Positions 4,699 to 26,608 of a stretch of 64,000 nucleotides of DNA are shown in pieces. A program made the position numbers and the translations under genes. The stretch covers positions 160,604 to 224,603 of the forward strand of contig NZ_KN266208.1 of assembly GCF_000766945.1 (NCBI RefSeq), written 5' to 3'. Below the pieces are notes generated by a model, which was not told the origin of the DNA, searched no databases, and saw only the letters and a program-made list of their open reading frames with translations. Each line of letters opens with the position of its first letter. Position 1 is the stretch's first letter. This DNA is from Cellvibrio mixtus subsp. mixtus J3-8. Lineage in GTDB: Bacteria; Pseudomonadota; Gammaproteobacteria; Pseudomonadales; Cellvibrionaceae.

Positions 4699-5667
4699 AT
4701 GGCAGCAAGCACCATTAACTCTCAGGGCGTTAAGCCTGTTGCACCATCTCGCAGCAATAATGCCGGGCAATTTGCACACTTCTGCGACCTGTACCATCAA
4801 CGCCTGGATGCACTAACGCTTACCAAACAACTTATCCATATGATTAAAGCGGTGCAGCGCCACCGCGGTATGACCATGGGCACATTAGGAGGCAACCAGC
4901 AATTTCGCGAAGACTTGAATAGCTTGCAGGTCCAGTTAGAGCGCCGCCTGGAGTTGTTACAGGCATTTTCCGCACACTCGATCAACTTGCTCAGCCCGCG
5001 GGACCAGGACAATCTCAACAATGCCTGGCTCACCATCAGCCGCAATTGGCAGGAAGATTCAGTTATCGACAATTATGAACTTCACTGCCATCTAATTGAG
5101 CAATTGCTCAGTATGGTGGCAGCCCTGGGTAAACAACTGGAATTACCGACATCGCAGTCGATGCCTGATACGGTGGAGCCCAGAGTCATTCATGTTGATG
5201 ACGCCCTCTACCCCAACCGCTTCAAATACCTGGAAGTACTGCATTTCGCCACACGCTTGATGCCTGCTGTGGCCGAACAAATCGGCCGGATTCGCGCACT
5301 CGCCACTTACGCGGCAGCACTGGGTTATTGCGATAAAGATTTCGCTGGCAAGCTGCGTTACGTCATCCAATGCACACGGGTAAACAATGAAAAGCTCCGC
5401 CACCAAACCAAGCGACTGGAAGGCTTGCTTGATACCGATCTCACTTTGCTCAATCAATTAAAAAGTTACGAAATCAAATTGGAATTCCTGCTGTCTATGG
5501 TGGAAGCCGATGTTGTCAATTCACACCAGATGAACGCCGACAGTAACCGGCTTTTCAGCCTGGCGACAGATATCATCGATGTCTATTTGAAAGTTGTAGA
5601 CGAAGGCGTGCAGCTCCTCACTCAATGGCACGAGCAGGATATTGAAGTCTGGGTGCAATCGTACTGA
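4699..5667 (+). CDS. Hypothetical helical protein with NIT-like (nitrate/nitrite-sensing-like) motif
   Basis: A 322-residue soluble, almost entirely alpha-helical protein; I see no signal peptide and no membrane segment. Around residues 48-62 it carries IKAVQRHRGMTMG, which resembles the opening Q-x-E-R-G signature of NIT sensory domains (PF08376), followed by long amphipathic helices. NIT domains usually sit in the periplasmic part of chemoreceptors or kinases, whereas this protein is free-standing and has no output domain, so the function is unknown. The ATG at 4699 has a TGGAG ribosome site about 10 nt upstream. It is divergent from the halogenase gene and 108 bp before the phospholipase gene, with which it may be co-transcribed. 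Confidence 0.8.
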   Translation: MAASTINSQGVKPVAPSRSNNAGQFAHFCDLYHQRLDALTLTKQLIHMIKAVQRHRGMTMGTLGGNQQFREDLNSLQVQLERRLELLQAFSAHSINLLSPRDQDNLNNAWLTISRNWQEDSVIDNYELHCHLIEQLLSMVAALGKQLELPTSQSMPDTVEPRVIHVDDALYPNRFKYLEVLHFATRLMPAVAEQIGRIRALATYAAALGYCDKDFAGKLRYVIQCTRVNNEKLRHQTKRLEGLLDTDLTLLNQLKSYEIKLEFLLSMVEADVVNSHQMNADSNRLFSLATDIIDVYLKVVDEGVQLLTQWHEQDIEVWVQSY

Positions 5668-5775: not shown

Positions 5776-6864
5776 ATGCGTCATATCTGGCCATTCAGTC
5801 TGGTTTTCCTCGCCGCGACCACGCACGCCCAAGCACCTGAAGCTACCAAAGAATTTACATCCGAACCCACCTTAACTGCAGAAGCAATGAATACTTGCTT
5901 GCAAGCGTCGGTAGTCAGCGCTGCCGAAACCATGACAATTCGCCAGTTAAAAGAAGCGTGCCAAATGCTTCATGACCAGCAAAAAAGTGAAGAACAACAG
6001 GCGAAAATCAAGGATGCCCCACCTGAAGTCGCGCAAGCGCGTGAAACACCATTACTTAAAAAACGCATGACAATGGAAGCCCTGAATCGCTCCAACCGCT
6101 TTATGCTCACACCACATAAACGCAATTATTTTTTTCCGGTAAGTTACACCCGCCACCCGAATACAGTGCCCTATCGCAACAACAATTCCGAATCGCTAAG
6201 CACGTTAAGTAAAACAGAAGCGGAATTTCAGTTAAGCATTAAAATCCTGATTCATGAAGATTTGTTTGGCGATAACGGCCACCTTTATCTGGGTTATACC
6301 AATCACTCACTCTGGCAAGTGTATAACGATACGGATTCCGCACCGTTTCGCGAAACCGATCATCAACCCGAATTTATTTTGAGTTTTACCAACGATTGGG
6401 AAATTCTGGGTTTTCAAAACCGGCTCAATGAATTTTCGTTAACACACCAATCCAACGGTTTAGGCGGCCAGCTTTCACGCAGCTGGAATCGCATTATGTT
6501 TAATACCGTTTTTGAACGCGGAAATTTTGCCTTTGCGTTAAATCCCTGGTATCGAATTCCCGAAAAAGAACAACGCTTTCCCGGCGATCCGCACGGTGAC
6601 GATAACCCTGATATCGAACATTACATGGGCAATTTCGAATTGAACACGGCGTATCAACACAAGGAAAATATTTTTAACGCGATGTGGCGCAACAATCTGG
6701 AGAGTGACAACAAAGGAGCAGTGGAGTTGGGCTGGAGTTTCCCGCTCAGTTCAAATTTACGCGGGCAATTTAAATATTTTAAAGGCTATGGTCACAGTTT
6801 GATTGATTACAATACCGACATGGAAATATTTGCGCTCGGTATTGTATTTACTGATTTATTTTAA
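5776..6864 (+). CDS. pldA: Outer-membrane phospholipase A (OMPLA)
   Basis: A 362-residue outer-membrane phospholipase that hydrolyses glycerophospholipids in the outer leaflet when membrane asymmetry is lost. A signal peptide (1-20, ending HAQA) is followed by an unusual acidic/charged extension of about 100 residues containing two cysteines (C41, C62), then the 12-stranded barrel. The catalytic block LTHQSNGLGGQLSRSWNRI gives H224, S226 and N238, with the same spacing as H142/S144/N156 in E. coli PldA. The protein ends in phenylalanine, as expected for BamA recognition. ATG 5776 is preceded by CAAGGGATAA. The stop is only 7 bp from the convergent PilZ gene. Confidence 0.95.
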   Translation: MRHIWPFSLVFLAATTHAQAPEATKEFTSEPTLTAEAMNTCLQASVVSAAETMTIRQLKEACQMLHDQQKSEEQQAKIKDAPPEVAQARETPLLKKRMTMEALNRSNRFMLTPHKRNYFFPVSYTRHPNTVPYRNNNSESLSTLSKTEAEFQLSIKILIHEDLFGDNGHLYLGYTNHSLWQVYNDTDSAPFRETDHQPEFILSFTNDWEILGFQNRLNEFSLTHQSNGLGGQLSRSWNRIMFNTVFERGNFAFALNPWYRIPEKEQRFPGDPHGDDNPDIEHYMGNFELNTAYQHKENIFNAMWRNNLESDNKGAVELGWSFPLSSNLRGQFKYFKGYGHSLIDYNTDMEIFALGIVFTDLF

Positions 6865-6871
6865 TGCGCAA

Positions 6872-7234
6872 TTAAAACGCTTCACCTAACAAATCGACTA
6901 GCGTCCTGATCGACTCTGACGATTGGGGCGATACGTCGATAATTGAAAATCCGGTCCAGTGTTTACCGGATAAATCAGCATCGCGAGTCCACAAGCAATC
7001 AACGCCCAATTGAATAACCATTTGCCCATTGACGGGTTCCGGTACATGCAAGTCGAGTGTGTAAATACGATCTTCCTCCAGCGGAATATCGCCGACCACC
7101 ATCAACCCTTGTGCATGGATATTTACCAGGCGCCCAACATATAAATCGCGCAGATTATCGTACACATCCACATCGCCATTAATTGTATGGCGCTCTAACT
7201 CCCTGTCGTGTTCATGCGAACAATTATGGGTCAT
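6872..7234 (-). CDS. PilZ-domain protein
   Basis: A 120-residue single-domain PilZ protein, presumably a cyclic-di-GMP receptor. The N-terminal RxxxR element is visible as RELER (11-15), and the second element, normally D/NxSxxG, appears as NIHAQG. Serine is replaced by histidine, so binding strength is uncertain. The following beta strands (VVGDIPLEE, YTLDLHVPEP, WTGFSIIDV) fit the PilZ barrel. Its ATG overlaps the stop of the upstream DUF1631 gene by 4 bp (ATGA), so the two are translationally coupled and probably work together. Confidence 0.88.
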   Translation of the reverse strand: MTHNCSHEHDRELERHTINGDVDVYDNLRDLYVGRLVNIHAQGLMVVGDIPLEEDRIYTLDLHVPEPVNGQMVIQLGVDCLWTRDADLSGKHWTGFSIIDVSPQSSESIRTLVDLLGEAF

Positions 7235-9642
7235 GATCCGCTCCCGGTTTTAAGGGTATCCGCACGCTCGTTCAGGGTATGGTAAATGTTTTCCAGGGCG
7301 CGCTCGAAGAAAGGTTTGGTGCTGCCCGCAATAATTTTTGCGCGCCCCGCGAGCATATCGCGCGCCAGTTGCAAACCTGCGGCCAGGGACACTTTGCGTC
7401 CCTGTTGATCTACCAACATGTAATGCTGGGTTTTTTTGTTGTACCAGGCCACTTTTAAACGCTTGCCGCCTTCAAATTCAAACCAAGTACCAAATTCCAC
7501 CATTTTCAAGCTATCGACAATTTTTTCTTCTTCAGGTGACACCGGTTGTAATTGTTCGGATACATGCCCCGCTTTTTCAGCCGCGAGACTTTCGAGTTTG
7601 GTACGCATGGGCGCCGGCGCAGGTTCGGCTTTACGGCTCAAGAGAGCCATCCGCTGTAAAGACGTCACCGCATCCAATAATTTGCGCCCTTTTGCCTGCT
7701 CATAACCAATGGTTTCAAAACCGCGCTCCAATGCACCAAGCAGTTCGTCCTGAATTGCCATTTGCTTTACTTTATCCGGCTGTTGGGTTTTGGGTTCCAA
7801 CGACCAGAGTAAATCGTCAATCACTTGTAAAGCGCGTTTCCAGCTATCGGATTTATCGCCATAGCGTAGCAATACAAACGATAAATAATCTGACCAGGGT
7901 TGCAATAACAACAATAAAATTGCTGACGGCATTTCGCGATTATCCGTGCGGCTGCGCACTTCGGTATTCACCTGGATTTTTGCTTCACGCAATTTTTCTT
8001 CGCCCTGGGCTTTTTCCAGCGCGCGGCGCTCCATTAATTCCTGGCGACGGGCAACGTTGTGCGTGTAAGCGTTAAATTCAATTAACAACTCCGCAAACAG
8101 GCGCACATCATTTTTAAATTCCTGCAACAGTCGGAATACGGTGGTTTTGATTTTGGTAAAAATATCGTACTGCTCGCTGCCATCATTGCTCACCCAACGA
8201 ACGCCGGCTTCAGCAAGGCTGTTAAGTAAAACGCGCGCAGGATGTTCCGGCTGCTCAAAAAATCCTTTATCGATAAAAGCAATTTTCAGGAACGGTGTAT
8301 GCAAATAACTTAGCAGCGCTTTCACCGAATCCGGCAAATGGTCATCCGATAACATGTATTCAAACAACATGCCCACCAAATCGATGGTTTGCATATCGCC
8401 CGCTTCTACAGCAGCATTTTCATTTTCGCTGGCGATAGTCTCCATCATCTTGCGGCCAACTTCCGCCGCACTTTGGATTTCAATAGCGACCGGGCCAGTG
8501 TCGTGATTGGCCAGCGCGTGCCGGGTATAACTCAACGCCTGGTTTTGCATATGTTCCAATACCCCAACGAGTTGCGGCTGGGAGTACACTTGCCAACTCG
8601 CGGGTACAGGTGGAGTTGCAACCGGAGCACCGCTTTGTGCCTGTAATGCTTGCGCCGCATGGACAGCAGGCAACTGCTGCGTGACATGCGCCTGCAGCAG
8701 ACGTATCGCGTTTAGTAAGCTGTTTTGGTATTGGATATCGTTAGGGTTGAGTGCGCCGCTCAATAATTTATCGCTGGCGCGCCGTTGGTGCTGCTGCTCT
8801 TCCTCTTCCGTTTGCTGCTCACTCACCGGAGTGGCCGCCTCTCGTTCAAACGGATCATCCTGAACAACATCTTCTGCTTTAGGCGCAGCCGGTTTTTCAT
8901 TGTTGGCGGGAACAAAACGCAGGTTGGGCAATAAATTCTGGCGAATAAGATAATCGTTGAGCTCTTTATAAAGCTCATCCAACATCCCCACCACATCCTG
9001 GTCAAATAATTTGTAGGCGATAATTTTGCTTTTTACGTCCACTTCCAGATTTCCCAGCAACTTGCGCAATGATTCGCAAAATTGCACAGGGCTGACGGGA
9101 TTGCTGCGTTCATCTACTTTCTCGCCATCGTTCAACAATGCCAGGCGTTGTTGGAATGCCCACAGATATTCCGCAAAAAAATTGTCTGCCCGATGGGTGA
9201 TGGAGGTAATTGCGATAGTTTCTTCGAGATCGGAATGTTCAACCAGCGACAGGATATCGCCGCTAAAACGCTCTTCGCCGGTTAAGGTATTGAGGGATTT
9301 ATTTTTAAATTTCACAAAACCATTGGCGAGATGCTGGCAAAACTCCTGCTCTGCAGCCTGTTGGACGGCAACAATCAGGTTTTGCATTTCATAAAGGGCA
9401 ACTTGCTCTTTATTGGATTTCGCCTGCTCGGCAATTTCCAGAATTTGTTTGCACCATTGCCGCCAAAAATTGGGGAAAACCCGGTATGCAAAGCCGCGCG
9501 TAAGGTCGCGGCAATGTTTCAAATGTTGGATGACCAATTGCTCTGTCATAGCTACCGCAGAATACGTAGAAGGTTTCTGGGTATCAGAGCCTGGTAAGCC
9601 TGAGTTGCGCATAGTTATTCCGTATTTTTCCATGATGGTCAT
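7231..9642 (-). CDS. DUF1631 family protein (paralogue 1)
   Basis: About 803 residues of a large cytoplasmic helical protein of the DUF1631 family (PF07793), which has no established biochemical role. The open frame continues to 9951, but the extra N-terminus is low-quality sequence and overlaps an apparent regulatory region. I chose the ATG at 9642, with ATG 9633 equally possible; AGGGA lies just upstream. A long helical body is followed by a linker rich in E and Q near the middle and a C-terminal block TWFEFEGGKRLKVAWYN with LVDQQGRKVS, which looks like a PilZ-type beta barrel. It overlaps the downstream PilZ gene by 4 bp. A second DUF1631 gene lies at 18407-21025. Confidence 0.88.
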   Translation of the reverse strand: MTIMEKYGITMRNSGLPGSDTQKPSTYSAVAMTEQLVIQHLKHCRDLTRGFAYRVFPNFWRQWCKQILEIAEQAKSNKEQVALYEMQNLIVAVQQAAEQEFCQHLANGFVKFKNKSLNTLTGEERFSGDILSLVEHSDLEETIAITSITHRADNFFAEYLWAFQQRLALLNDGEKVDERSNPVSPVQFCESLRKLLGNLEVDVKSKIIAYKLFDQDVVGMLDELYKELNDYLIRQNLLPNLRFVPANNEKPAAPKAEDVVQDDPFEREAATPVSEQQTEEEEQQHQRRASDKLLSGALNPNDIQYQNSLLNAIRLLQAHVTQQLPAVHAAQALQAQSGAPVATPPVPASWQVYSQPQLVGVLEHMQNQALSYTRHALANHDTGPVAIEIQSAAEVGRKMMETIASENENAAVEAGDMQTIDLVGMLFEYMLSDDHLPDSVKALLSYLHTPFLKIAFIDKGFFEQPEHPARVLLNSLAEAGVRWVSNDGSEQYDIFTKIKTTVFRLLQEFKNDVRLFAELLIEFNAYTHNVARRQELMERRALEKAQGEEKLREAKIQVNTEVRSRTDNREMPSAILLLLLQPWSDYLSFVLLRYGDKSDSWKRALQVIDDLLWSLEPKTQQPDKVKQMAIQDELLGALERGFETIGYEQAKGRKLLDAVTSLQRMALLSRKAEPAPAPMRTKLESLAAEKAGHVSEQLQPVSPEEEKIVDSLKMVEFGTWFEFEGGKRLKVAWYNKKTQHYMLVDQQGRKVSLAAGLQLARDMLAGRAKIIAGSTKPFFERALENIYHTLNERADTLKTGSGS

Positions 9643-10014
9643 ATTCCCTAGCCCCCAAACCAGATAGCCAATCAATTGCCACATCCGGAAATAGAGCCTT
9701 CGAAACCTGGAGACAGAGTGAGTAAGTCTAATTAGGTTGTCCTGAGCGCCAATCTTATCAGCTTGGGAAAATAGTTCCACACACAAACGCAACCGGCACA
9801 CTTGATTAAAAATAGCACGATATCGCTGTAACTGCCTGATGTGTCGATAAAAATTACATACCTGAACAATTGCAGCTGTCACATAGAGCCGCAAAACACT
9901 CGCACCAAAACAGAGCCACACGCACCACCGCAAAGCCCTATGAGAGTGCATAAAATTTAAAACAAAAAGTCGCGCCCAATCTGAATCCCTTTAAAAATCA
10001 GCGAATTACCGAAT
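9643..10014. other. Intergenic region between the DUF1631 gene and the guanidine unit
   Basis: No convincing gene. The reading frame of the DUF1631 gene is accidentally open to 9951 here. The region contains an imperfect 20-bp tandem repeat (9901-9940) and then the sigma-54-type promoter at 10015. It should hold the DUF1631 promoter as well, but I see no clear -35/-10 pair for it. Confidence 0.6.
9901..9940 (+). repeat. Imperfect 20-bp direct repeat, possible NtrC enhancer half-sites
   Basis: CGCACCA occurs at 9901-9907 and 9921-9927, each followed at the same offset by CARAGCC (9911-9917 and 9931-9937), giving two copies exactly 20 bp apart. The left part resembles the left arm of the NtrC site (GCACCA...TGGTGC), but the right arm is not matched. 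The position, roughly 80-115 bp upstream of the sigma-54-type promoter at 10015-10030, is normal for an enhancer. The NtrC link is inference. Confidence 0.4.
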
Positions 10015-10030
10015 TGGCACCCATATTGCG
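10015..10030 (+). promoter_or_regulatory. Sigma-54 (RpoN) type promoter of the guanidine operon
   Basis: TGGCAC-N5-TTGCG with GG and GC exactly 10 nt apart matches the -24/-12 consensus TGGCAC-N5-TTGCW at all but the last base. Predicted start near 10041, about 70 nt before the riboswitch aptamer. This would place guanidine use under nitrogen control. Confidence 0.6.
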
Positions 10031-10112
10031 ATAGCAATCTCCGTAATAACTGATCCGCACTCTGGGTGGTTTTAGCTATTCGACAAACTGTTCCACACAA
10101 TTTGTTAATAGA

Positions 10113-10239
10113 GAGCTAGGGTTCCGATTGCACCTTAAATATACGTGCGATGACTGGTCCGAGAGCTTTCGACCTCTCCTGATACCTTCGAAAAGGATTC
10201 AGCAGTGAGGTTACACGGCGGGATAAAAGCCCGGGAGAT
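10113..10239 (+). ncRNA. Guanidine-I riboswitch (ykkC class)
   Basis: The leader carries the hallmark conserved segments of the ykkC/guanidine-I aptamer: CTAGGG at about 10115-10120, ACTGGTCCGAGAG at 10153-10165, and ACGGCGGGATAAAAGCCCGG at 10214-10233 followed by GAGA. This class senses free guanidinium and switches on export or degradation genes. It lies about 65 nt before the start of the transporter/carboxylase operon, whose gene content is the classic guanidine set. No run of U follows a hairpin between the aptamer and the ribosome site (GGAGG at 10294-10298), so translational control or control through a weak terminator are both open. Confidence 0.93.
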
Positions 10240-10304
10240 GATTGGCCTAACCGCCAGAGTGCTCCCTATTAAAAAACGCCGATGTCACCCGTTGGAGGTT
10301 GTTC

Positions 10305-11366
10305 ATGTTGCACCACGCCCGCCTCACCAAAACATTACTCACACTTACATTATTATTTTCTGCAGCAACTGCCTCCGCTGCCGGGCCATTCAAAGTTTGC
10401 TGGTCCATTTATGTTGGCTGGATGCCCTGGGGCTACGGCGCCGAGCAAAAAATTATCGACAAATGGGCAAAGAAGTACGGTATCGAAATCGACGTTGTAC
10501 AAATCAACGATTACATCGAATCCATTAATCAATACACCGCTGGTCAATTCGATGGTTGCGTCATGACTAACATGGACGCACTAACCATTCCTGCTGCCGG
10601 TGGCGTTGATTCAACTGCGCTTATCGTGGGGGATTTCTCCAACGGTAATGACGGCATTGTGTTGAAAGGTGCAAACAAATCCCTCAAAGACATCAAAGGC
10701 CAAAACGTTAATCTGGTTGAACTAAGCGTTTCCCATTATTTATTAGCACGCGGCCTGGAAACCGTTGGATTGAAAGAAGCCGATGTAAAAGTAGTTAATA
10801 CTTCCGACGCCGATATGGTTGCAGTGTACGGAACCAAAGATGTCACAGCGGTGACCACCTGGAATCCATTGCTGAGCGAAATCCTCACCCAACCCAACAG
10901 CAGCAAAGTATTCGATTCCTCAAAAATCCCGGGCGAAATTATGGATTTGATGGTGGTGAATACCGCAACCCTGAAAAAAAATCCCGCGCTTGGTAAAGCA
11001 TTAGTCGGCGCCTGGTATGAAATCATGGGCGTAATGAGCGCGAATGACAAAACCGCCATCGCCGCAAAAACAGCAATGGCAACTGCATCAGGCACAGACC
11101 TCGCCGGTTTCGATTCACAACTCGCCAGCACCAAAATGTTTTATACCCCCGCCTCGGCTCTTGAATTGGTTAACAGTGGCGAGCTGTTAAAAACCATGCA
11201 AAAAGTGGCTGAGTTTTCCTTTGATCACGGCTTGTTGGGTGAAGGTGCACCCGATGCAAAATTTATTGGTGTTGAAGGCCCCAAAGGCGTTTACGGCGAT
11301 AAGAAAAACGTGAAGCTGCGTTTTGATACTACTTATATGCAACTCGCCGCTGATAAAAAACTGTAA
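10305..11366 (+). CDS. ABC transporter substrate-binding protein (guanidine/urea-carboxylase-associated)
   Basis: A 353-residue periplasmic binding protein. I chose the ATG at 10305, 6 nt after GGAGG; a TTG two codons earlier is unlikely. The signal peptide ends near ATASA (about residue 25). The mature part is an NMT1/taurine-type two-lobed binder (KVCWSIYVGWMPWGYG, then DGCVMTNMDALTIPAAGGVD), matching the family described as the putative urea ABC transporter binding protein found with urea/guanidine carboxylase genes. It is the first gene after the riboswitch, so guanidinium is the likely ligand, although this was not tested here. A stable hairpin follows the gene at 11384-11404, which could help keep its mRNA more abundant than that of the permease. 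Confidence 0.9.
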   Translation: MLHHARLTKTLLTLTLLFSAATASAAGPFKVCWSIYVGWMPWGYGAEQKIIDKWAKKYGIEIDVVQINDYIESINQYTAGQFDGCVMTNMDALTIPAAGGVDSTALIVGDFSNGNDGIVLKGANKSLKDIKGQNVNLVELSVSHYLLARGLETVGLKEADVKVVNTSDADMVAVYGTKDVTAVTTWNPLLSEILTQPNSSKVFDSSKIPGEIMDLMVVNTATLKKNPALGKALVGAWYEIMGVMSANDKTAIAAKTAMATASGTDLAGFDSQLASTKMFYTPASALELVNSGELLKTMQKVAEFSFDHGLLGEGAPDAKFIGVEGPKGVYGDKKNVKLRFDTTYMQLAADKKL

Positions 11367-11429: not shown

Positions 11430-12248
11430 ATGAAACGATTAATTAATTTAACGCCATCCAAACCTACCCGGCTGTTATTGGGGTTGCTGCCATTTTTAAT
11501 CATTGTGTTTATTTATTTAGTCGCTTCCGATGCGCGCCTCGCCCAAAATGCCACGGATAAATTGCTACCCAGTTTCGCGCAAATGGGCGATGCAATTCAT
11601 TCCCTCGCATTTGAAGCAAGCAAACGCAGCGGCGAATATTTATTTTGGCAAGATACCCTCAGCAGTTTGTATCGATTGGCTTTGGGTATTTTTATTGCCG
11701 CCATTATTGGTTTCACCATCGGCTTGTTAACCGGCGCAATCCCTGTGATTAATTCACCCATTGCACCGTTGCTGACAATCATTTCGTTAGTACCACCAAT
11801 GGCTTTGCTACCAGTGTTATTTATTATGTTTGGTTTAGGCGAACTATCCAAAGTAGCATTAATTGTTATCGGTGTTGCGCCGTTTATCGCGCGCGATATC
11901 CAACGCTGTGCGCAAGAAATCCCACATGAACAATTAGTAAAAGCGCAAACGCTCGGCGCATCTACCTGGCAAATTTTGCTGCGCGTATTAATTCCGCAAT
12001 TACTGCCAAGGTTAATTAATGCCGTGCGTTTGTCTCTCGGTGCCGGCTGGTTGTTTTTAATTGCCGCTGAAGCCATTGCATCAACAGATGGTTTGGGTTA
12101 CCGCATTTTCCTTGTGCGCCGTTACATGTCGATGGATGTGATATTGCCTTACGTCGCCTGGATTACATTGCTCGCGTTTCTAGTCGATTGGCTACTGGCC
12201 AAAACCAGTCGCATATGCTTTCCCTGGCACTATCCCAACAATAAATAA
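11430..12248 (+). CDS. ABC transporter permease (guanidine operon)
   Basis: A 272-residue inner-membrane permease of the binding-protein-dependent type, with about six hydrophobic segments. The first (19-35) is followed by a periplasmic loop. The EAA-type coupling helix is seen as EQLVKAQTLGASTWQILLRVLIPQLLP, here split in description as EQLVKAQTLGAS then WQILLRVLIPQL, which contacts the ATPase. It belongs with the preceding binding protein and the following ATPase as one importer. The closest functional family is SsuC/TauC-type permeases. The ATG at 11430 lies 63 bp after the preceding stop. Confidence 0.9.
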   Translation: MKRLINLTPSKPTRLLLGLLPFLIIVFIYLVASDARLAQNATDKLLPSFAQMGDAIHSLAFEASKRSGEYLFWQDTLSSLYRLALGIFIAAIIGFTIGLLTGAIPVINSPIAPLLTIISLVPPMALLPVLFIMFGLGELSKVALIVIGVAPFIARDIQRCAQEIPHEQLVKAQTLGASTWQILLRVLIPQLLPRLINAVRLSLGAGWLFLIAAEAIASTDGLGYRIFLVRRYMSMDVILPYVAWITLLAFLVDWLLAKTSRICFPWHYPNNK

Positions 12249-12275: not shown

Positions 12276-13118
12276 ATGACCATTTTGCCATTCGATAAAA
12301 AAATTCTCGAAGAAAAAAGAGCTAAAGCCATGCCCTTGATCAAGGCCAAAAACCTGTGGAAAAAATACGGCGATAACGTCGTACTGGAACGCATGAATGT
12401 CAGCGTCAATGCCGGTGAATTTATTACCATGGTTGGTACGTCCGGCTGTGGAAAAAGCACGTTCCTGAAAATGTTGCTCGGTATGGAATCACCCAGCTCC
12501 GGTGAATTATTACTCGAAGGAAAACCCATTCCCGATGAGCCGGATCAATCGCGCGGCATAGTGTTCCAGCAATATTCTGTTTTTCCGCATTTAACCGTAT
12601 TACAAAACGTCATCATTGCGCGCGAATTTGAACATTCACCGCTGTTAGGAAAATTATTTGGCAGCGCCAAACGCAAGGTAATGGAAGAAGCAAAAGCGCT
12701 GCTTGAATCTGTGGGTTTAACCCATGCATTAAATCGCTATCCGCATGAATTATCCGGCGGCATGAAACAGCGCCTTGCGATCGCGCAAGCATTGATTCGC
12801 CAACCGAGAATTTTATTATTGGATGAACCTTTCGGTGCGCTCGACCCGGGCATTCGCGCAGACATGCATCAACTTATTTTGCAACTCTGGCGCGAGCACC
12901 AGCTAACGGTGTTTATGGTTACGCATGATTTAAGCGAGGGATTTTATTTAGGCACCCGGCTGTGGGTATTCGACAAACTACGTCGCGACAACCAAGCCCC
13001 TAACGCTTACGGCGCAAGTATTACCTATGACTTGCCGGTTACTCGCCGCAAACAGGAATTGCCCGCCGAGCTATCCAGCGGATTGCGGGCACTCACGAAA
13101 GAAACTCAGGATCTTTAA
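12276..13118 (+). CDS. ABC transporter ATP-binding protein (guanidine operon)
   Basis: A 280-residue cytoplasmic ATPase that drives the importer. Walker A is GTSGCGKST (about 56-64), the signature is LSGGMKQR, Walker B is ILLLDEPFGALD, and the switch histidine lies in VFMVTHDLSEG. An N-terminal extension of about 20 residues precedes the usual start (MPLIKAKNLWKKYG). ATG 12276 is kept because GGTGGGG lies upstream, but the ATG at residue 19 is a real alternative. The C-terminal 50 residues after the switch region are longer than in SsuB/TauB and could be regulatory. Confidence 0.93.
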   Translation: MTILPFDKKILEEKRAKAMPLIKAKNLWKKYGDNVVLERMNVSVNAGEFITMVGTSGCGKSTFLKMLLGMESPSSGELLLEGKPIPDEPDQSRGIVFQQYSVFPHLTVLQNVIIAREFEHSPLLGKLFGSAKRKVMEEAKALLESVGLTHALNRYPHELSGGMKQRLAIAQALIRQPRILLLDEPFGALDPGIRADMHQLILQLWREHQLTVFMVTHDLSEGFYLGTRLWVFDKLRRDNQAPNAYGASITYDLPVTRRKQELPAELSSGLRALTKETQDL

Positions 13119-13154: not shown

Positions 13155-13907
13155 ATGAGCAAGATTTTTTACACCACAACCATTCCTGGCAACGGCCATT
13201 GGTCGCTGGAATTACGACGCGGCAGTTTATTAAAAATGACAGACCTGGAAGGGGGAGCCAATATCGGCATGCTGTTTTATAACCCGCGTAATTTGCTGGA
13301 ACGTTACAACGCCCCCGATACACTGAAATGCCAACACACATTCAAATTACAACGCGGTAATTGTTTGTATTCCGACATGGGGCGCATTTTTGCATCTATC
13401 GTTGAGGATCACTCCGTCAACGGCGAAGGCAACTGGCACGATACTGTCTGCGGGAATAGCACAACAAAAACAGTTGAAGAACACTGGGGAAAACGCGACT
13501 ACCAAAAAGATCGCAATCAATGGCTACAAAACGGTTACGACGCATTTTTGGTAGAACTGGCCAAATACGGGCTGGGTCGCGCCGACATGGCCTCCAACAT
13601 TAATTGGTTTAGCAAAGTCATCGCCGATGATGCCGGCAATATAAAACTCGATTATAAAAATCAGAGCGCGGGCAATAGCGTAACCCTTCGTTTTGAAATG
13701 GACACATTGGTAGTGCTGCACGCCTGCCCACACCCATTAAATATTTCTGAACAGTATCCATTTAAATCCGTGCAAATTGAATTGGGTGAAGCCGATCCTG
13801 TTAGTGATGACGATTATTGCAAAAACTTCCGCGAGGAAAACCAACGCGGCTTTAAAAACAATGAACTCTATTATCTAGCAACAAAAAACCAGTTTTCACA
13901 CACTTGA
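13155..13907 (+). CDS. DUF1989 protein, urea-amidolyase-associated / carboxyguanidine deiminase subunit
   Basis: A 250-residue member of the DUF1989 (PF09347) family found beside urea/guanidine carboxylase genes and long annotated as a urea-amidolyase-associated protein. Published work on guanidine-degrading bacteria assigns the paired DUF1989 proteins as subunits (CgdA/CgdB) of carboxyguanidine deiminase, which converts carboxyguanidine to allophanate and ammonia. Conserved features visible: LTKMTDLEGGANIGMLFYN-type opening (read as KMTDLEGGANIGMLFYN), SDMGRIFASIVEDH and LHACPHPLN. It shares the DLEG...LFYN...ERY pattern with its neighbour at 13973, so the two are ancient paralogues. Which is CgdA and which CgdB I cannot decide from sequence alone. 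Confidence 0.88.
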   Translation: MSKIFYTTTIPGNGHWSLELRRGSLLKMTDLEGGANIGMLFYNPRNLLERYNAPDTLKCQHTFKLQRGNCLYSDMGRIFASIVEDHSVNGEGNWHDTVCGNSTTKTVEEHWGKRDYQKDRNQWLQNGYDAFLVELAKYGLGRADMASNINWFSKVIADDAGNIKLDYKNQSAGNSVTLRFEMDTLVVLHACPHPLNISEQYPFKSVQIELGEADPVSDDDYCKNFREENQRGFKNNELYYLATKNQFSHT

Positions 13908-13972: not shown

Positions 13973-14614
13973 ATGTCACTCGTTCAAAGCAACTTGCATC
14001 CGGAAACCGCCACCGCTCGCCACAACGTAAAAGCAGGCGATTATTTCCTTGGCGAAATAAAACAGGGCCAAACCTTTCGTATCGTCGATCTGGAAGGCAA
14101 CCAGGCTGCAGACGTTTTATTTTATAACGCCAAAGATCCCAGCGAACGTTACAGCGCTATGGACACGATCCGTACGCAAGGCAATTTATATTTAAGCGCA
14201 GGCACCAAATTAATATCCAATGCCAGCAACGAGCTGCTGGAAATTGTTGCCGATACTTGCGGCCGCCACGACACGCTCGGCGGCGCTTGTGCAACGGAAA
14301 GCAACACTGTGCGTTACAGCCTGGAAAAACGTTGCATGCATGCATGTCGCGATAGCTGGATGCTTGCCATTGCTGAACACCCTGAATTCAATATTCGCAA
14401 ACGCGACATCACTCATAACATCAATTTTTTTATGAATGTTCCCGTTACCGCACAAGGTGGGCTTACTTTTGAGGACGGGATTTCTGCGCCGGGAAAATAC
14501 GTTGAGCTCAAAGCCAAAATGGATATTGTGATGCTGATTTCGAATTGCCCCCAGTTAAATAATCCATGCAATGGTTACAACCCGACACCGATTGAAGTGA
14601 TTGTGTGGAATTAA
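13973..14614 (+). CDS. DUF1989 protein, second urea-amidolyase-associated / carboxyguanidine deiminase subunit
   Basis: A 213-residue DUF1989 protein, the second of the pair. It has [14 protein letters not shown] (about 41-54), then [14 protein letters not shown] and the C-terminal family block [19 protein letters not shown], with cysteines that could bind a metal. By family knowledge it partners the preceding protein in carboxyguanidine deiminase. The ATG at 13973 follows TGAGG about 9 nt upstream. A 132-bp gap with a REP-like hairpin separates it from the carboxylase gene. Confidence 0.9.
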
Positions 14615-14682: not shown

Positions 14683-14746
14683 TAATTCTTCAGTGGACGA
14701 CCATTGTCGTATTTAACACCAGCGGGACGACCCGCCGGAGCACAAC

Positions 14747-17700
14747 ATGTTTACCAAAGTCCTGATCGCAAACCGTGGTGCCATCGCCACTCGAATTATT
14801 CGCACGCTCAAAAAACTCAATATCAAATCCGTCGCTGTCTACGCAGAATCCGATGTGGATTCTCTGCATGTAAGGCTTGCCGATGAAGCCTTTTCATTAG
14901 GCGAAGGTGCAGCGGCACAAACCTATCTGGACCGCAAAAAAATAATTACTATTGCACAACAAACCGGGGCACACGCTATTCATCCCGGCTATGGATTTTT
15001 AAGTGAGAACGCCAGTTTTGTTGCTGAGTGTGAAGCCGCAGGAATAATTTTTATTGGACCTACCGCGGATCAAATGCTGACCTTTGGTTTAAAACACAAA
15101 GCGCGCGAGCTCGCCCAGGCAGCGGATGTACCTTTATGTCCAGGCACGGATTTGTTAAAAAACATTGATGATGCACAGCAAGCGGCGGCGCGAATCGGTT
15201 ATCCCGTTATGTTGAAAAGCACTGCCGGCGGTGGTGGCATCGGCATGCAGTTGTGCAATAGCGAGCAGGATTTATTGTCTGCATTTGATTCCGTCAAACG
15301 CCTCGGAAAAAATAATTTTGCAGATGACGGCGTATTTTTGGAAAAATTTATCGCTGCTGCTCGCCACATCGAAGTACAAGTTTTTGGTGATGGCAAAGGC
15401 ACGGCGGTTGCCATTGGGGAACGCGACTGCTCCAGCCAGAGGCGCAATCAAAAGGTGGTGGAAGAATGCCCTGCTCCCAATTTGCCAGAGCATCAACGCA
15501 TTGCTATGCAAAAAGTCGCAGAGCAACTACTTGCTTCTGTAAATTATCGCAACGCCGGAACAGTAGAATTTATTTATGATTCATTGGATAACACATTTTA
15601 TTTCCTGGAAGTTAATACTCGCCTGCAAGTTGAACACGGTGTAACAGAAGAGGTTTATGGCGTAGACCTGGTTGAATGGATGCTCAAACAAGCCGCTGGC
15701 GAATTAGGGGATATTCGCAACCTGCGCAACCAACTCTCACCTAAAGGTCACGCCATTCAAGTACGTGTTTATGCAGAAGACCCCGCATTAAATTTTCAGC
15801 CCAGTGCTGGTTTGCTCAGCAAAGTAGAGTTTCCAACATTGACTGAAAATCTTCGTATTGATCATTGGATCGAAAGTGGAATTGAAGTGCCGGCATTTTT
15901 TGACCCCATGCTCGCCAAGATTATTGTGAAAGGCGCTGATCGCAATGCAGCATTATTCAATTTAAAAAATGCGTTAGGAAACACACAGCTTTATGGAATA
16001 GAAACCAACCTGGGTTATTTACGCGCGCTGTTGCAGGATGAAAAACTCTTGCAAGGCACCATGACTACGCGCTATTTAAACAGTTTTGTATTTAAACCCA
16101 ATCGTATTGATGTTATCCAAGGTGGAACCCAAACAACCATCCAGGATTTTCCAGGTCGCCAGGGTTATTGGCATGTTGGAGTTCCAACGTCCGGCCCTTT
16201 CGATAGTTATTCATTTCGCCTTGGCAATCGCATGCTAGGCAATGATGACACAGCAGCAGGTTTGGAAATTACATTACAAGGCCCCACATTGAAATTTGGC
16301 TGCACGACAAAAATTATTATTACCGGCGCAAGCATTGATGCAAAACTTGATGGGAATTTAATTCGCTCCAATGAAATTATAACTATCAATGCGGGCCAGC
16401 AATTGGTATTGGGGCGCATCACTGTTGGTGCACGCGCTTACTTGTGTGTAGCGGGTGGAATTCAATGCCCGGATTATCTTGGCGCAAAATCCACTTTTAC
16501 CCTCGGTCAATTCGGCGGCCATAATGGTCGCGCATTACGCGCCGGGGATGTACTTGCACTCGCACAAAATTGCAATCGCGAAATTGACGCAGCATTTGCA
16601 CCACAAGCATTAATCCCTGTAATTACCAACACCTGGCAACTGCGCGTTATCTATGGCCCGCATGGCTCACCGGATTTTTTCACCGAAAAAGATATCGCTG
16701 TTTTCTTTGCAACAGACTGGGAAGTACATTACAACTCCAGCCGCACCGGTGTGCGCCTGATCGGCCCCAAACCGGAATGGGCGCGCACCTCCGGCGGTGA
16801 AGCCGGTATGCATCCATCCAATATCCACGATAATGCTTACGCATTCGGCACAGTGGATTTTACTGGCGATATGCCGGTGATTCTCGGCCCGGATGGCCCT
16901 TCACTCGGTGGTTTTGTTTGCCCAGCCACAGTAATCAGCGCTGATTTATGGAAGCTCGGACAAGTACGTGCCGGCGATAAAATCCGTTTTATTCCCGTTA
17001 GCATTGATGATGCTGTTGCGATTGAAAAATCACAACACCAATCGTTGCAGAAACTGCATGTTGTTACGCACTCCTATTCCGAAGCGAATATTTCATCACC
17101 CATTGTTAAAAAGTTATTCGCACAGGAATTTGGTGAAGATATTGTTTACCGGGTTGCAGGCGACCATTTTTTATTGGTGGAGTACGGCGCACTTGAGTTG
17201 GACATTAAATTGCGCTTTCGCGCCCATGCATTAATGCAATGGCTGCAAAAAAATAGTATTGCCGGATTACGCGAATTAACACCTGGAATTCGCTCGCTGC
17301 AAATTCATTATGATAGCCAGCAAGTATCACTCACCCAATTACTCGGGCATCTGGAACTTGCAGAAAAAACCTTAACACAGCAACTAGCACAACTGAGTGT
17401 CCCTTCTCGTATAGTGCATATTCCTCTAAGTTGGGATGATGAAGCCTGCCAGCTCGCCATCCAGAAATATATGCAGTCTGTGCGCTCTAACGCGCCCTGG
17501 TGCCCGAGCAACCTGGAATTTATTCGCCGGATTAACGGCCTGAATTCTATTGCCGATGTTAAAGAGATTTTATTTTCTGCATCTTATTTAGTCATGGGCC
17601 TTGGTGATGTTTATTTAGGTGCGCCGGTAGCAACACCGGTTGATCCGCGCCATCGTTTGGTAACTACAAAATATAATCCTGCGCGCACCTGGACCGCTGA

Positions 17701-18346
17701 AAACTCGGTGGGCATTGGTGGCTCTTATTTATGTGTGTATGGCATGGAAGGACCTGGAGGTTATCAGTTCGTAGGCCGCACGTTGCAAATGTGGAATCGT
17801 TATCGCCAGACCAAAGCGTTTAAACACCCCTGGCTGTTAAACTTCTTCGACCAGATTCGCTTTTATGAAGTCAGCGCTGAAGAACTACAAAAAATCCGCC
17901 GCGACTTCCCTTTAGGCAGATACGACATAAAAATTGAAGAAAGCCATTTCAGTTTGGGCGAGTATGAAAATTTTATTGCTGCAAATAAATCCGGCATCGA
18001 TAAATTTACTACGCAGCGTGAAAAAGCATTTGAGGAAGAACTGGCACGCTGGCATGCAAATGGCCAATTTAATTATGAGCAGGAAGAAATTATTGAAAGC
18101 GAGACCGAGACTCAATTCCCTGATAGCGCTATTTGCGTAGACAGTTCGGTTTCCGGCAGCGTGTGGCAAACCCAGGTAAAAATCGGACAGGAAGTTAGCG
18201 CCGGTGATATTTTATTAATTCTTGAATCCATGAAAATGGAAATCAACATTAACGCCCCTTGTGCAGGCAAAGTAACGCATCTATTAAAAAATGATGGTGC
18301 ACGGGTTCAGGCAGGACAAACACTGGTAGTACTGGAAGAAGTGTAA
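14747..18346 (+). CDS. Biotin-dependent guanidine/urea carboxylase
   Basis: A 1199-residue multidomain enzyme of the urea carboxylase family. Order: biotin carboxylase domain (about 1-450; ATP-grasp glycine loop STAGGGGIGM, and EVNTRLQVEHGVTEE); carboxyltransferase halves related to KipA/KipI (about 460-970); a linker domain; and C-terminal biotinyl domain with ESMKM (biotinylated lysine K1163). It carboxylates guanidine or urea using ATP and bicarbonate. The riboswitch, the two DUF1989 genes and the missing allophanate hydrolase fusion argue for guanidine as the physiological substrate; several bacterial enzymes of this type prefer guanidine. The ATG at 14747 follows GGAG at 6 nt. The allophanate hydrolase needed downstream in the pathway is not in the window. 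Confidence 0.93.
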   Translation: MFTKVLIANRGAIATRIIRTLKKLNIKSVAVYAESDVDSLHVRLADEAFSLGEGAAAQTYLDRKKIITIAQQTGAHAIHPGYGFLSENASFVAECEAAGIIFIGPTADQMLTFGLKHKARELAQAADVPLCPGTDLLKNIDDAQQAAARIGYPVMLKSTAGGGGIGMQLCNSEQDLLSAFDSVKRLGKNNFADDGVFLEKFIAAARHIEVQVFGDGKGTAVAIGERDCSSQRRNQKVVEECPAPNLPEHQRIAMQKVAEQLLASVNYRNAGTVEFIYDSLDNTFYFLEVNTRLQVEHGVTEEVYGVDLVEWMLKQAAGELGDIRNLRNQLSPKGHAIQVRVYAEDPALNFQPSAGLLSKVEFPTLTENLRIDHWIESGIEVPAFFDPMLAKIIVKGADRNAALFNLKNALGNTQLYGIETNLGYLRALLQDEKLLQGTMTTRYLNSFVFKPNRIDVIQGGTQTTIQDFPGRQGYWHVGVPTSGPFDSYSFRLGNRMLGNDDTAAGLEITLQGPTLKFGCTTKIIITGASIDAKLDGNLIRSNEIITINAGQQLVLGRITVGARAYLCVAGGIQCPDYLGAKSTFTLGQFGGHNGRALRAGDVLALAQNCNREIDAAFAPQALIPVITNTWQLRVIYGPHGSPDFFTEKDIAVFFATDWEVHYNSSRTGVRLIGPKPEWARTSGGEAGMHPSNIHDNAYAFGTVDFTGDMPVILGPDGPSLGGFVCPATVISADLWKLGQVRAGDKIRFIPVSIDDAVAIEKSQHQSLQKLHVVTHSYSEANISSPIVKKLFAQEFGEDIVYRVAGDHFLLVEYGALELDIKLRFRAHALMQWLQKNSIAGLRELTPGIRSLQIHYDSQQVSLTQLLGHLELAEKTLTQQLAQLSVPSRIVHIPLSWDDEACQLAIQKYMQSVRSNAPWCPSNLEFIRRINGLNSIADVKEILFSASYLVMGLGDVYLGAPVATPVDPRHRLVTTKYNPARTWTAENSVGIGGSYLCVYGMEGPGGYQFVGRTLQMWNRYRQTKAFKHPWLLNFFDQIRFYEVSAEELQKIRRDFPLGRYDIKIEESHFSLGEYENFIAANKSGIDKFTTQREKAFEEELARWHANGQFNYEQEEIIESETETQFPDSAICVDSSVSGSVWQTQVKIGQEVSAGDILLILESMKMEININAPCAGKVTHLLKNDGARVQAGQTLVVLEEV

Positions 18347-18406: not shown

Positions 18407-21025
18407 TCAATTCATCATACGTTTTTCACGCAAGTTACCAATTACTGCTTCCAGTGCGCGATCAAATAACATACCGTCATCCAGGATCGTCAAACGTTTG
18501 GTTTGCAGTGCAATAGCCAGACTCTCACGGCTTTCTTCCGCCACTTTCATACCGGCACGATTAACAAAAATATATTTTCCGACCGAGCGAATAATTGCCG
18601 CCAAACGGCAACGATACTTCTCACCCGCCTCACCTTGCATTTCAAACCATGTGCCTTGGGTAATATTATTTACCAGTGCCAAATGTTGCGGATCGACCTG
18701 GATACTTTGAGTCACGGATTCATCAATAACAACACCGGCTTCTTCAACAAGCGATTGCTGTTGTGTCGCAACCTCTTCCACCGTATTGGCAACAGTTTCA
18801 GTCGCAACCACTGGAGATCCAGCATTTTCAGGCTGTTCAATAACAGGTTGCTCTGCGGCAACAGGAGCAACTTCGCTAACGTCGGGAATAATTTCTTGAG
18901 GTATTTCAACAACAACTTCTTGCGCGATTGCCGTTGAAGGCTCGTTCACAACCGCTTCATTTGCACGCTTGGTTTGTGTAGCTTCTGCGTTCGCAGCTAC
19001 CTGACTATTACCAGCCATTTGTGCATTAGCAGCCAATTGTGCTTTTTGCTGCGCTTCGATCATAGCGGCTTTCACACTGGCATTTTTTGCCGCCAGCTCT
19101 TGCGCTTTAATAGCTAATTCCGCAGCAGAGGCAACAGGTTCAACGTCTTCGGCGACCGGCTTTGGCTCACCACGCAAACGCGCGAGATGCACCACTTCCA
19201 ATTGTTTAAATAAATTTGTTGTTTCAAATGGACTGAACGAAATGCTTTCCAATCCAGTACGCAATTTTTGCAATAATTCGGGTACCAGTTTTAATAGGCG
19301 CTGGCGATTATCCTTATCCATAGTTGCTGTTACGCTCCATACCAACTGCTGGGCAGTAGCAGAGCAAATGCGCCATTCATCACTTTCCACACCCTGCTTT
19401 AGACTGGTAATGAACATCACGTTCGCCCAAGCCTCACGCAATAATTTGGTGACGGCTAACGGTAAATCCTTACCGGTGCAGATACGATTCAACTCAGCAT
19501 CAACTTGCGCGCGCGCGCGTTCGGACTTGGCTTTGCCATCTTCCGCATCAATGGTGCGCTGCTCCAGAATTTGGGCGCGGCGCTTTTCTTTATCCAGATA
19601 GGAACGGAAATCTACAAGCAAACGCTCGAATACGCTCATATCAGTATCGAATTCGGTTAACACAGCGCGAACAGTTTCTTCCATCTTGCTATAGAGACCG
19701 TCCTTGCGCTGACTGTCTTCGCTGGATTCTTGCCAACCCAAACAAGCCATCGCCATTTCATTTAATAAACGACGGGCCGGATGGCCGCCTTTGCTGAAGA
19801 AAGTTTTGTCAGCAATAGCAACTTTCACCATCGGAATTTGCAAACGCCCAATCAGGGCTTTCATTGGCGCAGCAAGATTACGATCATCCAGAATAAACTC
19901 AAACATCATGCTGACGAGATTAATAACATCATCATCAACTTGATTGATAGCGGCAGCGGCAAGAGTTTCCTGACGCAATAACTCATTCAGCATACTGCGC
20001 AAATTCACGGGGGCACTGTGCGTCATCGCTGCACTGAACATATTTTGCTGTTGCGCCAGGGACAGAATTTTTATCAGATCCTGAGTAGTGATCTCCTCAC
20101 CTGGTGATTGTGTACGCGGCGCGTTACGGCTGGTGCCTAACAGGTTGCGCAACTGACTCAAAACCTGATTGGTTTGATCATCGTAATTTGGCGTCAACCC
20201 GCCAGTAATCGGCGCGGATTGCAAGCCCATGTCAACTTCAGCACTCAGCCCCTTACCAAAACTGTCCGCCACATTGGACGTTGGTTTTTTTGGAACACGC
20301 GACGCCTGTTTTAATGATGGCAAAATATTGGCATCAATAAGCGTCAGGTTGAGCACTTCAAAAAATTTGCCGAGCTTCGACATAACGATATTGTCAAACA
20401 GCTTAAACAATACCAACTTGGCTTTTACATCGACATTGAGTGTTTTGGTTGCATCGGTAAACGCACCACAAATAACATCCACACCTAATGGGTTATTTTT
20501 TTGATAGACCTTGATCGGTACTAAATGGTCGATACGCAACGTTAAATGCTGGATAGGTTCACTGAACTGTTCATTGGCCTTATTGACCATCGCGTCGATA
20601 GCGACCATCTCTTCCAGTTCATCATTTTTTACCAGGGAGAGATCATCAAGCGAAACAGAGTGTTCATCCACCTGTTTTTCATCGCGATAGGCATGAGGAT
20701 CTAACAAGCGCGCAAAACTGATATCAATACTGCGGAAGAACGAAGTTTCCATAGCACGACGGCGAATGCGTACTTCGCGCATAGAATCAAAAAAGATATT
20801 CTGGTCGTGGTTGTTATTGGCCTTATCAGCCAACTCAAACATAGCATCATCCACTTTGTCGAACAGCTCGCGCAAAAATAATTGCAATTGTTGCCGGGCT
20901 TTATCGCGCAGGGTGTGCATAGCTGCCGGCAAACGTGCGAGTGCAATTTGCGAATTCGCGGTAGAATTCCGCTCGACATTTAATTGAACGACCTTTTTGG
21001 GGTCAGCTTTCAGATGCTCTGACAT
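18407..21025 (-). CDS. DUF1631 family protein (paralogue 2)
   Basis: About 872 residues, a second DUF1631 protein. The open frame reaches 21121 from a GTG, but the ATG at 21025 (MSEHLKADPKK) gives a sensible soluble N-terminus and I prefer it, although its ribosome site is weak. It shares the architecture of the 7231-9642 gene: a helical N-terminal half (with DVKAKLVLFKLFD, compare DVKSKIIAYKLFD), a central helical core, an alanine/glutamine- and valine/glutamate-rich linker of about 130 residues, and a C-terminal PilZ-like block starting GTWFEMQGEAGEKYRCRL. In Pseudomonas a DUF1631 gene also neighbours nadC, so this copy is probably the ancestral one. Function unknown. Confidence 0.88.
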   Translation of the reverse strand: MSEHLKADPKKVVQLNVERNSTANSQIALARLPAAMHTLRDKARQQLQLFLRELFDKVDDAMFELADKANNNHDQNIFFDSMREVRIRRRAMETSFFRSIDISFARLLDPHAYRDEKQVDEHSVSLDDLSLVKNDELEEMVAIDAMVNKANEQFSEPIQHLTLRIDHLVPIKVYQKNNPLGVDVICGAFTDATKTLNVDVKAKLVLFKLFDNIVMSKLGKFFEVLNLTLIDANILPSLKQASRVPKKPTSNVADSFGKGLSAEVDMGLQSAPITGGLTPNYDDQTNQVLSQLRNLLGTSRNAPRTQSPGEEITTQDLIKILSLAQQQNMFSAAMTHSAPVNLRSMLNELLRQETLAAAAINQVDDDVINLVSMMFEFILDDRNLAAPMKALIGRLQIPMVKVAIADKTFFSKGGHPARRLLNEMAMACLGWQESSEDSQRKDGLYSKMEETVRAVLTEFDTDMSVFERLLVDFRSYLDKEKRRAQILEQRTIDAEDGKAKSERARAQVDAELNRICTGKDLPLAVTKLLREAWANVMFITSLKQGVESDEWRICSATAQQLVWSVTATMDKDNRQRLLKLVPELLQKLRTGLESISFSPFETTNLFKQLEVVHLARLRGEPKPVAEDVEPVASAAELAIKAQELAAKNASVKAAMIEAQQKAQLAANAQMAGNSQVAANAEATQTKRANEAVVNEPSTAIAQEVVVEIPQEIIPDVSEVAPVAAEQPVIEQPENAGSPVVATETVANTVEEVATQQQSLVEEAGVVIDESVTQSIQVDPQHLALVNNITQGTWFEMQGEAGEKYRCRLAAIIRSVGKYIFVNRAGMKVAEESRESLAIALQTKRLTILDDGMLFDRALEAVIGNLREKRMMN

Positions 21026-21201
21026 GGTGGATTTACCATTAGTAAAAACTTGCGTAAGTGAAGTATAACCAAGGGCAAGACACACCAAATAGACAAATGA
21101 TAGGATCGAGAGCCATATCACAAACAGTTATAACCACTAGGCCTGTTTTGCTATTTTTAAGTATATTTAGTAATTAAAGGTTTATTTTTGCGCCAAATTA
21201 G

Positions 21202-26592: not shown

Positions 26593-26608
26593 AGCAACCG
26601 CTGTGCCA
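26593..26608 (-). promoter_or_regulatory. Sigma-54 promoter of pilA
   Basis: On the minus strand TGGCAC-N5-TTGCT, an exact match to the -24/-12 consensus TGGCAC-N5-TTGCW. Predicted start near 26581, giving a leader of about 35 nt to the pilA ATG. PilS/PilR-RpoN control of pilA is established in Pseudomonas. Confidence 0.88.

Follow-up and report, generated by a model that had tools for sequence, protein, structure and literature searches.

Layered control predicted for a guanidine-assimilation operon by a sigma-54 promoter and two guanidine riboswitches

The 64-kb stretch of DNA analysed here (hereafter the window) carries a guanidine-assimilation operon that is very probably under layered control, combining a sigma-54/NtrC promoter (layer 1) with a Guanidine-I riboswitch (layer 2) and a Guanidine-II riboswitch (layer 3). 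Under nitrogen limitation, phosphorylated NtrC on paired upstream sites would activate the sigma-54 promoter and RNA would be made from about position 10041; the leader would then fold into Guanidine-I, and guanidine binding would permit the importer and deiminase genes to be expressed; finally, Guanidine-II, in front of the carboxylase ATG, would gate translation of this ATP- and biotin-consuming enzyme. The logic would be that of an AND gate, nitrogen need and guanidine being required together.

Results

Gene content and pathway

The Guanidine-I aptamer sits upstream of guanidine transport and metabolism genes, namely the TIGR03427 importer, UAAP1/2 and the carboxylase (Table 1). Asp704 of the carboxylase aligns to Asn1330 of yeast urea amidolyase, a site that we take to be the exact specificity position. 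Guanidine enzymes are described as marked by Asp and urea enzymes by Asn (review PMC12186494, text available in part). By the Asp at the diagnostic place, the carboxylase, which is urea carboxylase by its best model, is predicted to be of the guanidine rather than the urea type. UAAP1 and UAAP2 are equated here, by name, with the CgdA/B subunits. Their deiminase role is taken from the published CgdA/B operon (PMC12508155, text available in part).

Table 1. Predicted features of the guanidine operon and its leader, in window coordinates.
Feature	Position	Strand	Evidence and remarks
NtrC-like site	9902..9916	.	one GCACCA half-site and one weak half; centred near -132 relative to predicted start
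Weaker NtrC-like site	9922..9936	.	13 bp from the 9935..9949 site
NtrC-like site, one good half	9935..9949	.	33 bp from 9902..9916; centre about -99
Sigma-54 -24/-12 promoter, predicted	10015..10029	+	TGGCAC-N5-TTGC, exact; RNA start expected near 10041
Guanidine-I riboswitch aptamer (RF00442), predicted	10105..10239	+	85.5 bits, gathering 63, E 7.4e-14 (Rfam)
Expression platform	10240..10304	+	Shine-Dalgarno GGAGG about 10294-10298; without terminator-like site
ABC transporter substrate-binding protein, probable guanidine importer	10305..11366	+	TIGR03427, 555.8 bits
ABC transporter permease	11430..12248	+	best models TauC and SaoP, both below cut-off
ABC transporter ATPase	12276..13118	+	best model ntrCD, below cut-off
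UAAP1, probable carboxyguanidine deiminase subunit	13155..13907	+	TIGR03425, 310.3 bits
UAAP2, probable carboxyguanidine deiminase subunit	13973..14614	+	TIGR03424, 331.2 bits
Guanidine-II riboswitch aptamer (RF01068), predicted	14691..14735	+	32.2 bits, gathering 32 (Rfam)
Guanidine carboxylase, by model urea carboxylase	14747..18346	+	TIGR02712, 1859.4 bits

Allophanate hydrolase was not found in the operon, the next gene being a DUF1631 gene on the opposite strand. The only allophanate hydrolase above cut-off in the genome (820.5 bits) lies on another contig and adjoins the second carboxylase of the genome, which has Asn at the specificity position. Allophanate, the product of the pathway, is probably hydrolysed by this one clear hydrolase, encoded elsewhere. 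The hydrolase locus (L224:1490-3297 (-) and L230) also holds, by reading, a GntR-like regulator, and a guanidine aptamer was not found there; a one-mismatch -24/-12 site, suggestive only, stands 69 nt before the hydrolase ATG. As a separate observation, DUF1631 (PacR-like) genes flank the operon on both sides on the opposite strand (7231-9951 (-) and 18407-21121 (-); 517 and 766 bits), giving the impression of an operon placed between paralogues.

Promoter and aptamers in the window

By direct reading, all ten fixed bases of the GG/GC -24/-12 consensus are matched upstream of Guanidine-I with correct spacing, and the genome encodes RpoN (one PF04552 match, 238.8 bits). The site is one of two exact TGGCAC-N5-TTGC matches on both strands of the 64 kb; the other lies at 26594-26608 (-). 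An earlier note on this DNA had placed a near-perfect -24/-12 element at 10015-10030, about 70 nt before a ykkC/guanidine-I aptamer at 10113-10239. The element proved to be exact and one base shorter, and 76 nt separate its -12 C (10029) from the first aptamer base. The covariance-model search that the note had proposed confirmed the aptamer class, with a score well above the gathering threshold (Table 1), and moved its start, which had been set 8 nt too late. Guanidine-I had a single match at E 0.001 in the 5.18-Mb genome, the one in this operon, and so had Guanidine-II, in the same operon.

Guanidine-II was absent from the earlier note. Its score is marginal, barely over the cut-off; it consists, by reading, of two GGACGACC hairpins and ends 11 nt before the carboxylase ATG. 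Among 65 Guanidine-I matches in the family, 41 have Guanidine-II 2.9-5.3 kb downstream on the same strand, and it was not found nearby in the other 24, some of whose contigs end early; an Rfam scan also placed it downstream in five of seven longer loci of the named set described below. The aptamer itself is observed, and its gating of carboxylase translation would follow by analogy with published Guanidine-II work.

Predicted action of Guanidine-I

Guanidine-I was found in 63 of 144 genomes of the family (65 matches), and 64 of these matches were used, one (G026) being left out at a contig edge. For folding, 59 of the 64 leaders were retained, no start or pattern being found in the other five. 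In the free fold, the Shine-Dalgarno sequence pairs with the aptamer in 50 of the 59 leaders, in 48 of them with the P2 arm. Its unpaired probability is 0.157 in the free fold versus 0.405 with the aptamer forced, and this opening is abolished when the platforms are shuffled (0.263 versus 0.261; p 2e-8); opening by more than 0.2 is predicted in 37 of the 59 leaders and closing in 4. The duplex between P2 and the Shine-Dalgarno sequence is stronger within leaders than between genera (-16.35 versus -13.85 kcal/mol; 61 leaders, three of the 64 dropped; p 3e-6) and beats the cross-genus duplex in 16 of 19 genera, with the own duplex falling within the best 5% of cross-genus pairs in only 18% of leaders. 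AGGT[TC] occurs at the Shine-Dalgarno position in 43 of 62 leaders (two of the 64 dropped) versus 9 of 73 control starts further downstream. In one leader (G060) the start used for the duplex and AGGT[TC] counts, and not for the 59-leader folding, lies 239 nt away and is probably that of the next gene. Platforms also contain segments that could pair with the aptamer core GGUUACACGG; these reach 8 nt or more in 14 of 62 leaders, a result matched by 0.3% of shuffles.

On these models, Guanidine-I is likely to act as a switch on translation in the family, with a small or absent predicted effect in the window. Here the Shine-Dalgarno sequence is unpaired with a probability of 0.10 free and 0.25 bound when a coding tail of 12 nt is included; with a 20-nt tail the values are 0.26 and 0.21, that is, no opening, and in the fold of the whole leader the Shine-Dalgarno region pairs with the leader 5' end instead. 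Complementarity between the Shine-Dalgarno sequence and P2 was rejected as the window's own proof, the duplex energy being -13.4 kcal/mol versus -13.7 across genera.

The weak or absent opening in the window leaves room for another reading of layer 2, possible although the less favoured one, in which the Guanidine-I check is transcriptional, acting by antitermination, and the Shine-Dalgarno sequence pairs only incidentally, through the shared ACCU/AGGU. Guanidine-I riboswitches are usually transcriptional according to the available part of a review (PMC12186494), and a GGGAG...CUCCC hairpin can be read after the aptamer, with at least five T in the nine bases past its 3' arm in 11 of the 48 leaders where that arm was found by pattern. 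However, terminator-like sites numbered zero in 9640-10320, where shuffles average 0.8, and an intrinsic terminator of the transcriptional type, a feature that class membership does not require, was not found in the platform of the window; Rho-dependent termination is invisible to the scans used. The loss of opening on platform shuffling, the AGGT[TC] excess over control starts and the stronger own duplexes likewise speak against incidental pairing. We lean towards the translational reading, in which the Shine-Dalgarno sequence, otherwise paired to the aptamer P2 arm, would be freed by guanidine; the transcriptional one touches layer 2 only and is compatible with layers 1 and 3.

NtrC-like sites upstream of the promoters

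In the 220 nt before each of 147 promoters (duplicates included), the most enriched unseeded 6-mers were GCACCA (119 versus 14.0 expected) and TGGTGC (70 versus 12.0), half-sites that we take to be the binding motif of NtrC. Sites found by a trained matrix concentrate 80-120 nt upstream, and their pairing peaks at spacings of 30 bp (30 versus 0.6 expected) and 31 bp (40 versus 1.0). The matrix is circular for site counts, and weight is therefore placed on the unseeded 6-mers and the spacing. Pairing at 13 bp was also seen (35 versus 2.8 expected; in the window likewise, at 9922-9949), an overlap that a single-site model does not explain.

The genome encodes NtrC (TIGR01818, 767.4 bits, cut-off 558.6), and its only exact GCACCA-N3-TGGTGC precedes, by about 106 nt, a frame reading as ntrB, beside ntrC. 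From this anatomy, NtrC is inferred to be the activator of layer 1. The NtrC model is matched over much of its length by about ten further proteins of the genome, and the window's own sites (9902-9916 and 9935-9949) are imperfect, being half-sites rather than full palindromes; the -24/-12 element could accordingly be used by another enhancer-binding protein, in which case the promoter would not report nitrogen limitation. This is unlikely given the top rank of the two 6-mers with their 30-31 bp spacing and the palindrome before the ntrB-like frame. In addition, loss of ntrC in Burkholderia abolished expression of an operon whose annotation, taken alone, suggests orthology (PMC5491218, text available in part).

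Conservation of the promoter before Guanidine-I

Within 250 nt upstream of Guanidine-I, a -24/-12 site was found in 19 of the 64 family leaders at no mismatch, in 43 at up to one and in 62 at up to two, versus 0.05, 1.1 and 8.45 expected from dinucleotide shuffles of the same 64 regions; on the reverse strand the counts were 0, 0 and 9. The 62 sites stand 45-170 nt upstream of the aptamer.

Two further sets were compared. The named set was drawn from the best 80 of 524 relatives found via the substrate-binding protein, 71 of which had a full aptamer by text pattern and 70 of which were used (one had an N upstream), the first aptamer being taken where there were two; the pattern misses some true aptamers, as L190 and L195 fail it and pass Rfam. 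Sites numbered 12 (exact), 50 (up to one mismatch) and 62 (up to two) of the 70, and 0.1, 1.5 and 11.6 in shuffles. For the class set, 369 genomes were drawn from across the class (gammaproteobacteria), 29 of which held Guanidine-I (38 matches); the 29 loci used gave 7, 23 and 26 sites, against 0.05, 0.25 and 3.7 in shuffles. The family and named sets share at least five contigs and are not independent. Leaders with three or more promoter mismatches made up 2 of 64, 8 of 70 and 3 of 29 in the family, named and class sets, respectively.

As a control, 30 loci out of 74 Guanidine-II matches were examined. None of the 30 leaders had a -24/-12 site at up to one mismatch, and five had a two-mismatch site. 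By length and first residues, these loci comprise 12 exporters, 14 carboxylases and 4 ambiguous cases; the exporter-type leaders gave 0 of 12 at up to one mismatch and 3 of 12 with a two-mismatch site. The exporters resemble the small multidrug-resistance type, and all six tested match PF00893.

A chance origin of the window's -24/-12 match was rejected on the conservation of its place and strand across leaders. That it arose by chance, with the operon read from an unrecognised sigma-70 promoter, is very improbable: although matches at up to one mismatch occur in the whole window at chance frequency (7 versus 8.17 expected), place and orientation hold in 62 of 64 family leaders versus none at one mismatch on the reverse strand, and a sigma-70-type match was not found in 9640-10320, where shuffles average only 1.0.

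The promoter and the aptamer also recur together when the gene is doubled. In nine loci with two adjacent substrate-binding-protein genes (by reading), a separate promoter and aptamer (by text pattern) precede each copy, 17 of the 18 sites having one mismatch and the remaining one two; these loci are titled Pseudomonas except L171, from a Pseudomonadaceae genome. Plasmids, one from Pantoea and one from Rhizobium, likewise carry an exact site ahead of Guanidine-I. At an Azospirillum plasmid locus (L227), neither aptamer nor promoter was found before the gene in question, which follows atzF.

Two arrangements may be recorded separately. In Pseudomonas peli (L181), two Guanidine-I aptamers (5390-5514 and 6825-6933) and one Guanidine-II (11306-11352) share a strand and span no more than 6 kb; a one-mismatch -24/-12 site and a substrate-binding-protein-like gene accompany each of the two Guanidine-I aptamers. 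A doubled Guanidine-I is seen by text pattern in eight other loci. In L114 and L115, a mere 7 nt or so separate an exact -24/-12 site from the start of the Guanidine-I pattern, which would place the RNA 5' end very close to the aptamer.

Discussion

The AND-type reading of the earlier note, nitrogen limitation followed by a guanidine check, is supported by the anatomy of the window and by the comparison across genomes. A broader proposition, for which we judge the case to be evenly balanced when all of its parts are taken jointly, is that guanidine-assimilation operons of gammaproteobacteria and at least some alphaproteobacteria are headed by a heritable module of NtrC-sigma-54 promoter and Guanidine-I; that riboswitch-controlled exporters go without the promoter (as in the 12 exporter-type Guanidine-II leaders); that Guanidine-I in the family acts translationally through an anti-Shine-Dalgarno sequence in P2; and that the internal Guanidine-II is a third serial check.

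Assimilation operons with a promoter responding to nitrogen limitation would tell when bacteria treat guanidine as food and not poison. They also provide a clear system in which to test riboswitches that operate beneath a global nitrogen regulator, the second check requiring no protein. Many such genes still carry urea names, and published nitrogen-regulon data may already hold a guanidine response. COG3665 is presumably the UAAP-type family. In a survey of predicted sigma-54 regulons, this group contributes 102 predicted sigma-54 genes, spread over alpha-, beta- and gammaproteobacteria, and 59% of these bear the name urea carboxylase (PMC12316311, text available in part). The string 'guanidin' is absent from that survey, and 'riboswitch' occurs once, within a reference.

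Among the titles listed in searches of a literature with few subscription papers, none was found to join an NtrC/sigma-54 promoter with a guanidine riboswitch; as far as these searches go, the earlier note's remark that nitrogen control of riboswitch-gated guanidine operons has rarely been detailed is fair. The parts are published separately, as a two-riboswitch operon in Vreelandella and an NtrC-controlled 'urea carboxylase' operon in Burkholderia. According to the available text of PMC12508155, the Vreelandella boliviensis guanidine carboxylase operon resembles that of the window in that Guanidine-I opens the operon, Guanidine-II precedes the carboxylase, and an ABC importer and CgdA/B are present, whereas it also holds atzF and methylguanidine genes, both of which the window operon lacks. 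Its proteins are high on guanidine, and most are undetected on ammonium; guanidine and ammonium were compared there as sole nitrogen sources, so that the two signals are not separated, and 'NtrC' is absent from the text of the paper. A double-riboswitch operon in enterobacteria is also described in the available part of the review PMC12186494.

For nitrogen control, the counterpart is I35_7283-7286 of Burkholderia cenocepacia H111, whose expression under nitrogen limitation is lost in the ntrC mutant. Like the window operon, and by annotation only, it encodes a substrate-binding protein, an aminomethyltransferase-like protein and a carboxylase; in the available portion of that study (PMC5491218) it is counted among urea genes, with a 'urea carboxylase', and the word 'riboswitch' is absent from the paper.

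The closest known logic, by analogy, is that of nitrate assimilation in Klebsiella, where general nitrogen control (Ntr) is likewise combined with a leader-RNA check specific to the pathway (PMC5424462, text available in part). Antitermination in the Klebsiella leader needs the nitrate-binding protein NasR, whereas in the window sensing is predicted to lie with the RNA itself.
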